Assembly (NCBI GenBank): GCA_003252515.1
Contig: QKDR01000157.1
Span: 1 to 35,345, forward strand
Direction: 5' to 3'
From: Candidatus Delongbacteria bacterium
GTDB lineage: Bacteria; UBA4055
Length of the DNA: 35,345 bases
Positions 27,344 to 30,157 of the stretch are shown here, in pieces. A program made the position numbers and the translations under genes. A model generated the notes under the pieces. That model did no database searches. It saw only the letters and a list, made by a program, of their open reading frames with translations, and was not told the DNA's origin. The first letter of the stretch is position 1. Each line of letters begins with the position of its first letter.

Positions 27344-27372
27344 TTGACATTACATTTAAGCTAAAATAAATT
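27344..27372 (+). promoter_or_regulatory. Promoter of the saccharopine unit
   Basis: A perfect -35 TTGACA (27344-27349), 17 bases and TAAATT (27367-27372), followed by a leader of about 28 bases containing GGGAG before ATG 27408. It begins 18 bases after the STAS stop codon, so the two following genes form their own unit. Confidence 0.6.
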
Positions 27373-27407
27373 CCACCCGCCTTTGAATTAAAAAACAGGG
27401 AGTCGTT

Positions 27408-28706
27408 ATGTCTAAAACAATAGGAATCAGATTCGAAGATAAATATGTTCTTGAAAAAAGGGTTCCTCTTGTTCCTTCCGATGTCGGGAAACTTGTTGCT
27501 AAAGGGTTGAAAGTAGAAGTGCAATCTTCGGAAAAGAGAATTTTCAAAGACTCTGAATATGCATCCGCAGGAGCTGAAATCGTTAAAGATATGCACAATT
27601 CCGATGTGGTTCTCGGGGTTAAAGAAGTAACAATGAATTCGTTCGAGGAACACAAAACATATATATTCTTTTCTCACATCATAAAAGGTCAGTCATACAA
27701 TATGCCTATGCTGGGAAAAATGATCAATAAAAAAATAAATCTGATTGATTATGAAAAAGTAACTGACGATAAAGGCAGGAGACTGATCTTTTTTGGGAAT
27801 TACGCCGGCCTTGCAGGCATGATCGATACTCTCTGGGCTTTAGGACTGAGGCTGGAACATTCAGGCATTGTCACTCCGTTCAGAAAACTGAAACAATCCA
27901 GAATGTATGATTCGCTTGAAGAAGCTAAATCTGTGCTAAGGGACATCTCTTCGGAAATATCTGATAAGGGACTTCCTGAAGAACTTTGCCCTTTCACTGT
28001 TGGATTTGCTGGATACGGAAATGTTTCAAAAGGAGCTCAGGAGATATTCGATATACTTCCTTTTACTGAGATCGGACCTTCAGAACTTCATAAACTTGAT
28101 AAGGCTGCATCTTCCAGAAATAAGCTTTACAAAATCATTTTTAAAGAAGAACATCTGGCTGAAAAAAATGACGGCTCTGAATTCGAACTTCAGGAATATT
28201 ATATTCATCCCGAAAGATTCAAAGGTGTATTTGAGAAATATTTGCCTCATTTATCCGTTCTGATGAACTGCGTGTACTGGACAGATAAATATCCGAGACT
28301 GGTTACAAAAAATTATCTTGAAAAAAACTATAATAAGAACTCTAAGCTGATAGCTATAGGTGATATAACCTGTGATGTGAACGGCTCCGTCGAATGTACA
28401 GAACTGGGAACCCCAATCGATGATCCGGTATATATTTATAATCCTGTCACAGGAACACATACCATGGGCCATGAAGGAGAAGGGCTTCTGATCATGAGCG
28501 TGGATATACTTCCAAGCGAATTGCCCAGAGAATCCTCTGAGTTCTTCAGTAAAGAACTTTATCCTTTCATAGGAAGCATTGCGGAATGTGATTTTTCAAA
28601 ACCTTTCGAAGATATAGTCCTAGCTGAGGAGATAAAACGCGCACTGATACTTTTGAACGGTGAATTTACCCCGAATTATGAATACCTGAGAAAATATCTT
28701 AAATAA
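27408..28706 (+). CDS. Lysine-ketoglutarate reductase (saccharopine dehydrogenase, lysine-forming type)
   Basis: This protein corresponds to the N-terminal half of eukaryotic bifunctional AASS (LKR/SDH), which joins lysine and 2-oxoglutarate to saccharopine with NADPH, or the reverse. It begins like AASS with IRFEDKYVLEKRVPLVP and continues with the AlaDh/PNT-like pattern VVLGVKEV (Lys72), TYIFFSHIIKGQ (His90), LIDYEKVTDDKGRRLIFFG, AGLAGMIDTLWALGLRL, the Rossmann motif GFAGYGNVSKGAQEIFD (199-215) and the late segments LMNCVYWTDKYPRLVTK and AIGDITCDVNGSVECTE. Lys72 and His90 are likely acid-base residues by analogy with yeast Lys1. At 432 residues it is a full domain. It is followed 19 bases later by the matching SDH gene. 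Whether the pathway runs toward lysine breakdown or synthesis cannot be decided here. Confidence 0.88.
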   Translation: MSKTIGIRFEDKYVLEKRVPLVPSDVGKLVAKGLKVEVQSSEKRIFKDSEYASAGAEIVKDMHNSDVVLGVKEVTMNSFEEHKTYIFFSHIIKGQSYNMPMLGKMINKKINLIDYEKVTDDKGRRLIFFGNYAGLAGMIDTLWALGLRLEHSGIVTPFRKLKQSRMYDSLEEAKSVLRDISSEISDKGLPEELCPFTVGFAGYGNVSKGAQEIFDILPFTEIGPSELHKLDKAASSRNKLYKIIFKEEHLAEKNDGSEFELQEYYIHPERFKGVFEKYLPHLSVLMNCVYWTDKYPRLVTKNYLEKNYNKNSKLIAIGDITCDVNGSVECTELGTPIDDPVYIYNPVTGTHTMGHEGEGLLIMSVDILPSELPRESSEFFSKELYPFIGSIAECDFSKPFEDIVLAEEIKRALILLNGEFTPNYEYLRKYLK

Positions 28707-28725
28707 ACTAATAAAGAAGAATAAA

Positions 28726-30066
28726 ATGAAGAAAGTACTTATACTTGGCGCAGGCATGGTCTCAAAACCGATGTTCGAGTATCTGCTTGAAAAAAATATC
28801 AGTTTCACCGCCGCGTCAAACACTCCCGAGAACAGCAACAGAGTTATCGGTAACAACCCGCTTGGAAAAAGCGTTTTCATCGACATCGTGAAAGATAAGG
28901 TACTGATGGAGAATTTAATTTCAGAACATGATCTTACAGTCAGTCTTCTCCCTTATGCCTTTCATATCGAGGTTGCCAAACTCTGTATCAAACATAAAAA
29001 GAACATGGTCACGACTTCTTATGTAAAACCCGAAATGCAAGACCTTGACCAGCAGGCTAAAGATGCCGGAATTATCATACTGAACGAACTTGGTGTGGAT
29101 CCCGGTATAGATCACATGTCAGCCATGAGAATTATTGATCATATTCATAATAAAAGCGGGAAAGTTGAAGAATTTTATTCTATCACCGGGGCTCTGGTCG
29201 CTCCGGAAGCGGAAAAAAATCCGTTCTGCTATAAATTCACATGGGCACCGAAAGGTGTGGTTATGGCCGGTAATAATGACAGTAGATTTCTGTGGAAAGG
29301 TGAAGAGAAATATATTCCTACGCAAGACCTTTTCAAAAAACCTTTTTCAGTTGACTTTCCGGATGTGGGAAAGCTGTTTGTATATCCGAACAGAGATTCA
29401 TTACCGTATATGACACTCTATGGTATTCCTGAGACAAAAACCATATTCAGAGGTACTTTCCGTTATGACAGATGGTGCGAAAATATTGATGCCATGAAAC
29501 AATGCGACCTGCTTTCGTACGATAAAATTGATCTTAACAATAAAAGTTATGCCGATATGCTGGCTGTAAAAATAGGCGCGAACAATTCAGAGAATATCCG
29601 TCAGAAAACAGCCGACTTCTTAAAGATATCCATTAACAGCAGAATACTTGACGCTTTTGAGTGGATGGGACTTTTCAGCGGAGAAAAGATCGGCAGATCA
29701 GAAGATTCCCCGTTCGAAGTAATCTCAGATATGATGATAGACAAAATGATGGTCAGCAACAATGAAAGGGACATGGTCGCAATGCAGCATACTTTCCTTG
29801 CATCATATCCCGACGGCTCTAAAGAAGTGATAAGATCAAGGCTTCTTGATTTCGGATCGCTTCAAACCAACACTTCAATTGCAAGAACTGTCGCTCTACC
29901 CGCTGCAGTCGGTGTCAGAATGATCCTGGAAGGAGAGATACACGTTAAAGGTGTTCACATCCCGGTCATCCCGGAGATCTATAATCCGATACTTGATGCG
30001 CTTGAAGAGATGAATATAAAAATGATCGAAGAATATGGTCTGCCGGAAACCGAGATCATCAGTTAA
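28726..30066 (+). CDS. Saccharopine dehydrogenase (glutamate-forming type)
   Basis: This 446-residue enzyme corresponds to the C-terminal half of AASS and to yeast Lys9. It splits saccharopine into glutamate and 2-aminoadipate 6-semialdehyde with NAD(P)+, or works in reverse. The N-terminal Rossmann fold starts KKVLILGAGMVSKPM. Further landmarks are DLTVSLLPYAFHIEVAKLCI, NMVTTSYVKPEMQDLD, LNELGVDPGIDHMSAM, SITGALVAPEAEKNPF, YKFTWAPKGVV, GTFRYDRWCENI and the C-terminal ARTVALPAAVGVRMILEG. Sequence order and spacing fit the AASS SDH domain. The binding site (AAGAAG) is modest. An intrinsic terminator follows 28 bases after the stop codon, closing the two-gene unit. Confidence 0.92.
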   Translation: MKKVLILGAGMVSKPMFEYLLEKNISFTAASNTPENSNRVIGNNPLGKSVFIDIVKDKVLMENLISEHDLTVSLLPYAFHIEVAKLCIKHKKNMVTTSYVKPEMQDLDQQAKDAGIIILNELGVDPGIDHMSAMRIIDHIHNKSGKVEEFYSITGALVAPEAEKNPFCYKFTWAPKGVVMAGNNDSRFLWKGEEKYIPTQDLFKKPFSVDFPDVGKLFVYPNRDSLPYMTLYGIPETKTIFRGTFRYDRWCENIDAMKQCDLLSYDKIDLNNKSYADMLAVKIGANNSENIRQKTADFLKISINSRILDAFEWMGLFSGEKIGRSEDSPFEVISDMMIDKMMVSNNERDMVAMQHTFLASYPDGSKEVIRSRLLDFGSLQTNTSIARTVALPAAVGVRMILEGEIHVKGVHIPVIPEIYNPILDALEEMNIKMIEEYGLPETEIIS

Positions 30067-30093
30067 AAAGCAAATTTCGTTCAGTATCCTATA

Positions 30094-30131
30094 AAAAGGA
30101 GTTTCAACAGTAAAACTCCTTTTATTTTTTT
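30094..30131 (+). terminator. Intrinsic terminator of the saccharopine unit
   Basis: An 11-base perfect stem, AAAAGGAGTTT (30094-30104) with AAACTCCTTTT (30113-30123), an 8-base loop and a T-rich tract at 30125-30131. Confidence 0.85.
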
Positions 30132-30157
30132 ATATATTATTGCGATTGTCTAAAATA

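Follow-up and report, generated by a model that had tools for sequence, protein, structure and literature searches.

Do the two saccharopine-type genes found side by side in a draft genome of a Candidatus Delongbacteria bacterium serve the degradation or the synthesis of lysine, and did they reach this locus together? The genes are located on contig C156 (QKDR01000157.1), which represents the whole window of 35,345 nucleotides (nt) analyzed here. They encode a lysine-2-oxoglutarate reductase (LKR) and a saccharopine dehydrogenase (SDH) as separate open reading frames (ORFs), both on the plus strand and separated by a gap of 19 nt. The draft genome (2.52 Mb, 95.9% complete) was searched family by family for further pathway members. 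As judged from sequence comparison, the pair very likely serves lysine degradation via the saccharopine pathway, with an aminoadipate-semialdehyde dehydrogenase (AASADH) encoded on contig C120 as the probable third enzyme; enzymatic activity, cofactor and direction are predicted. The features of the locus are as follows.

27344..27372, plus strand: sigma-70-type promoter, TTGACA, 17 nt, TAAATT (10/12 consensus matches; conserved in relatives)
27408..28706, plus strand: LKR, lysine-2-oxoglutarate reductase (saccharopine-forming), 432 aa (PDB and Pfam matches, conserved residues)
28726..30066, plus strand: SDH, saccharopine dehydrogenase (glutamate-forming), 446 aa, homologous to Lys9 and the AASS SDH domain (PDB, Pfam, residues, trees)
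30094..30133, plus strand: intrinsic terminator, 11-pair stem and T tract (folding; hairpin-like counterpart in relatives)

Identity of the LKR and SDH proteins

Searches against AASS, Lys1 and Lys9, as proposed in the first-pass annotation, supported the enzyme identities, the split form and the AASS-like gene order described there. LKR residues 5-428 matched the LOR domain of human AASS (8dda/8e8u, the best PDB matches; phmmer, E ~7e-76), and the match to yeast Lys1 was weaker (phmmer, E ~1e-24). Residues K72 and H90, corresponding to K77 and H96 of Lys1, are invariant across 44 aligned LKR sequences, and E16, R18, E116 and R125 are likewise kept. Kumar 2012, cited in PMC9490328, names the two Lys1 residues as catalytic in its title. 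The protein is assigned as a putative saccharopine-forming enzyme. It shows 69-71% identity to LKR proteins of UBP11 / Candidatus Delongbacteria genomes, in which the flanking genes are syntenic, and the genome is assigned to Delongbacteria on these grounds.

The SDH protein gave near full-length matches to yeast Lys9 (2axq, 1e-80), the Magnaporthe enzyme (1e5l, 2e-79) and the SDH domain of human AASS (5l76, 6e-77), as well as Pfam matches to Sacchrp_dh_C (239 bits) and Sacchrp_dh_NADP (71 bits). All 33 sequences compared, including the human and fungal ones, share S98, Y99, D125 and R223; we take S98, Y99, D126 and R224 of the Magnaporthe enzyme to be their equivalents.

Distribution of the gene pair

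The first-pass annotation regarded the saccharopine pathway as uncommon in bacteria, a view that is wrong or at least overstated, since the pair is not rare: a single, seed-limited scan over species genomes retrieved 37 homologous LKR loci from about 12 phylum-level groups, namely Delongbacteria, Bacteroidota, Neomarinimicrobiota, Planctomycetota, Ignavibacteriota, Calditrichota, Ozemobacteria, Aminicenantes, Myxococcota, CSSED10-310, Thermodesulfobacteriota and Thorarchaeota. In 25 of these loci, SDH immediately follows LKR. The other 12 comprise one with a frame-broken SDH downstream, one with SDH upstream, three in which the contig ends after LKR and seven without SDH directly downstream. 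The pair is thus a member of an already known, widespread bacterial saccharopine pathway, in which LKR and SDH feed AASADH and which has reportedly been described by Serrano in 2012 (FEBS Lett) and Neshich in 2013 (ISME J).

AASADH adjoins LKR in nine of the 37 loci, all from Neomarinimicrobiota and Ignavibacteria-type genomes. One of these nine was scored and exceeded the cut-off of the L-piperidine-6-carboxylate dehydrogenase model (788 vs. 730); the remaining ones share 57-65% identity with the AASADH of the genome studied here.

Several further loci were observed. Two tandem, divergent SDH copies follow a single LKR gene at L016:7293-10062, and LKR-SDH pairs occur in Asgard archaea (L035 and L036, Thorarchaeota), which bears on how eukaryotic AASS arose. 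Lysine fermentation genes had been suspected beside the Aminicenantes LKR from protein lengths; this idea was rejected, as the genes there look like housekeeping genes by sequence. Plasmid searches returned distant homologues only, except for one Aureibacter SDH at 55%, and a search of viral contigs with the AASADH query returned 18 loci.

A third enzyme and the proposed pathway

The first-pass annotation stated that no AASADH accompanies the pair. This is correct for the window, in which no ORF around the pair encodes an AASADH, and incorrect for the genome: a separate contig, C120, carries an AASADH gene after a gene for 1-pyrroline-5-carboxylate dehydrogenase (P5CDH). The AASADH protein scored 774.6 with NF050084 (cut-off 730) and matched alpha-aminoadipic semialdehyde dehydrogenase structures at ~1e-167. 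Contamination was considered as the source of C120 and rejected as unlikely, because its composition fits the genome and the P5CDH encoded on it shares 87% identity with the one of the same-genus genome G008; in both genomes, a ModE-type gene lies next to the P5CDH gene.

In the proposed pathway, LKR would join lysine and 2-oxoglutarate into saccharopine using NAD(P)H, from which SDH would release glutamate and 2-aminoadipate 6-semialdehyde by oxidation. The C120 enzyme (ALDH7A1-type) would then oxidize the semialdehyde, or its cyclic form, to 2-aminoadipate. The direction, left undecided in the first-pass annotation, is more plausibly degradation than synthesis, because AASADH lies beside LKR in nine related loci and homocitrate synthase was not found in the genome, the sole PF00682 match being a partial one in a 552-aa protein.

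Lysine fermentation offers a further argument for this reading. The sister genus g6, which is without LKR, carries instead the full KamA-Kdd-Kce-KamDE cluster for lysine fermentation, as would be expected of alternative lysine routes. These five genes were located at L097 (G006) and L100 (G002), the latter genome having both the cluster and LKR. Given the few related genomes, this is a pattern rather than a statistic.

Several observations weigh against this proposal. Among 13 Delongbacteria genomes, AASADH was detected in this one only, and LKR is present in eight; moreover, the AASADH gene is unlinked to the pair. At the position of the NADPH-phosphate site of human AASS (S266/R267), LKR has K246 and no serine, and its cofactor preference is uncertain as deduced from sequence. 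SDH has T154 where the fungal and human enzymes have cysteine; threonine is found in seven of the 33 SDH sequences. Draft gaps may explain part of the AASADH absences. In G008, the absence is uncertain because the contig ends shortly after P5CDH, at the very place expected for AASADH.

History of the two genes

Trees were built for both domains, as the first-pass annotation had recommended. Delongbacteria and Bacteroidota sequences group together in both, indicating a shared deeper history of the pair, with the LKR of G002 placed just outside this group and no SDH found near it. The eukaryotic (human) rows form long branches in both trees, so that the ancestral split form suggested in the first-pass annotation is one possible relation to eukaryotic AASS. 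Within Delongbacteria, the two trees conflict. Hence the notion that the genes might have unrelated histories, raised in the annotation as an argument against its own proposal, fails at the scale of the phylum and applies at the scale of the genus.

In the LKR tree, the window sequence clusters with G004 and the members of its own genus (100/99). The window SDH shows 78-83% identity to three sequences of genus g7, vs. 69-70% to those of G008, G009 and G004, and nests within g7 (100/98) beside G010 and G012, with G011 outside. Placing LKR with g7 (p 0.002) and SDH with its own genus (p <= 0.0003) were both rejected by the AU test, the p values being indicative since the groups were named after the trees had been seen. 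LKR, the genes for SAICAR synthase and a STAS protein and all four genes downstream have their nearest relatives in the own genus; for four of these (the OMP, NifU-like, PepP and histidine kinase genes), the stretches compared contain no counterpart from g7. Based on these sequence relationships, the SDH coding sequence alone was most likely exchanged for that of a different genus of Delongbacteria, with the rest of the locus remaining in place. The GC content at third codon positions (GC3) of SDH is 0.44, which equals the host value and differs from that of g7 (0.23-0.28). The exchange therefore does not appear to be recent, and a chimera with g7 is unlikely.

An old tandem duplication of SDH followed by differential loss, or a chimeric contig, would also produce conflicting trees, and tandem SDH copies do exist (L016). 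However, the nested position of SDH beside G010 and G012, with G011 outside, would require several parallel losses, and a chimera would need two joins, since both flanks belong to the own genus, in addition to being at odds with the host-like GC3. These explanations are possible, though less probable than replacement.

Alternative readings of the function

For much of Delongbacteria, it is conceivable, albeit doubtful, that the pair forms a stand-alone module without AASADH or any aldehyde dehydrogenase, leading from lysine to the semialdehyde or pipecolate or transferring nitrogen, with its genes exchanged separately between genera. For the genome studied here, a related explanation would be that the semialdehyde is reduced to pipecolate as an osmolyte, or that the pair mainly moves lysine nitrogen to glutamate, the own AASADH being incidental. 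Seven other Delongbacteria genomes keep LKR with no AASADH detected, and two of these, G004 (95% complete) and G009 (86%), have LKR and no PF00171 match at all; furthermore, PMC7253579 describes, for plants and bacteria, a branch of this pathway that leads to pipecolate. If the absence of AASADH is real, the semialdehyde must go elsewhere in these organisms, e.g., to pipecolate. Nevertheless, the genome in question has its own AASADH, AASADH is linked to LKR in two other groups, and the draft genomes are incomplete, so that this explanation is considered unlikely.

Operation in reverse, as in fungi, with lysine formed from aminoadipate semialdehyde, would agree with the finding that dapB and lysA above the curated cut-off were not found in the genome. 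Against it stand the missing homocitrate synthase, the similarity of LKR, which is far greater to the catabolic domain of AASS than to Lys1, and the presence of dapA, with dapB occurring in 11 of 13 Delongbacteria genomes, so that the own absence of dapB may be a gap. Synthesis by this route is thus very improbable. True loss of the diaminopimelate (DAP) pathway is likewise not concluded, as dapA is present and relatives have dapB.

Only one of the 13 genomes has a lysA above the cut-off, and the final step to lysine may be divergent or missing in these genomes. Two LysA-like proteins of the genome were considered as candidates and rejected, as neither reaches the cut-off and models of N-citrylornithine or arginine decarboxylase fit them better. 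On contig C125 (L045:116-2769), the gene for a LysA-like decarboxylase was observed in a row with an ATP-grasp-like gene and one for a small protein; the best score of this decarboxylase, below the cut-off, was obtained with N-citrylornithine decarboxylase FslC.

Finally, polyamine enzymes of the carboxynorspermidine or carboxyspermidine dehydrogenase family, which share the PF03435 NAD(P) domain and which the first-pass annotation had named as possible better matches, can practically be dismissed, as the best full-length matches of SDH are saccharopine enzymes, its neighbour is LKR and not a decarboxylase, and carboxyspermidine dehydrogenase 8deb, although present in the PDB library, was matched by the other PF03435 protein of the genome and not by SDH. 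That second protein (L049:5271-6407, contig C106) is closest to PH1688 (3abi). We take PH1688 to be a relative of lysine dehydrogenase, and the C106 protein possibly represents another route from lysine to the semialdehyde.

Promoter and terminator of the unit

The closed unit described in the first-pass annotation found support in comparisons with relatives. The TTGACA-17-TAAATT promoter is the joint best sigma-70-like match of the region. Promoter-like matches in the region are not commoner than in shuffled sequences (13 vs. 10.0 +/- 2.8 expected), and the promoter by itself is therefore not above chance; its support comes from conservation in three relatives, since upstream of LKR in G008, G004 and G009 the TTGACA motif, the spacing and AAATAAATT are identical to those of the window. 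The terminator stem (30094-30123) with its T tract folds at -11.8 kcal/mol (z -4.2). Hairpin-like sequences, judged by eye and differing in their stem letters, occupy the same position in the three relatives.

Comparison with known systems

The results extend the split saccharopine pathway to Delongbacteria, add a neighbourhood link to AASADH in other phyla and provide an apparent case of in-place replacement of a single gene within a two-gene operon. They also raise the question of the fate of the semialdehyde in relatives without an aldehyde dehydrogenase.

Compared with AASS, the bifunctional LKR/SDH of animals and plants, both halves, their order and the catalytic and substrate residues are alike, whereas two separate genes 19 nt apart take the place of one fused protein. 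Yeast Lys1 and Lys9 are likewise separate proteins, and Lys9 is the closest solved SDH; in contrast, the yeast enzymes work in the biosynthetic direction, the NAD-type Lys1 is much more distant, and no homocitrate synthase was found here. The arrangement of LKR and SDH feeding AASADH resembles the bacterial saccharopine pathway, differing in its occurrence in a candidate phylum, in the unlinked AASADH and in an SDH apparently swapped between genera. The LKR-SDH-AASADH clusters L018, L021, L025 and L029 of Neomarinimicrobiota and Ignavibacteria-type genomes show 48-49% (LKR) and 41-43% (SDH) identity to the pair and contain AASADH within the cluster, whereas it is encoded elsewhere in the genome described here.
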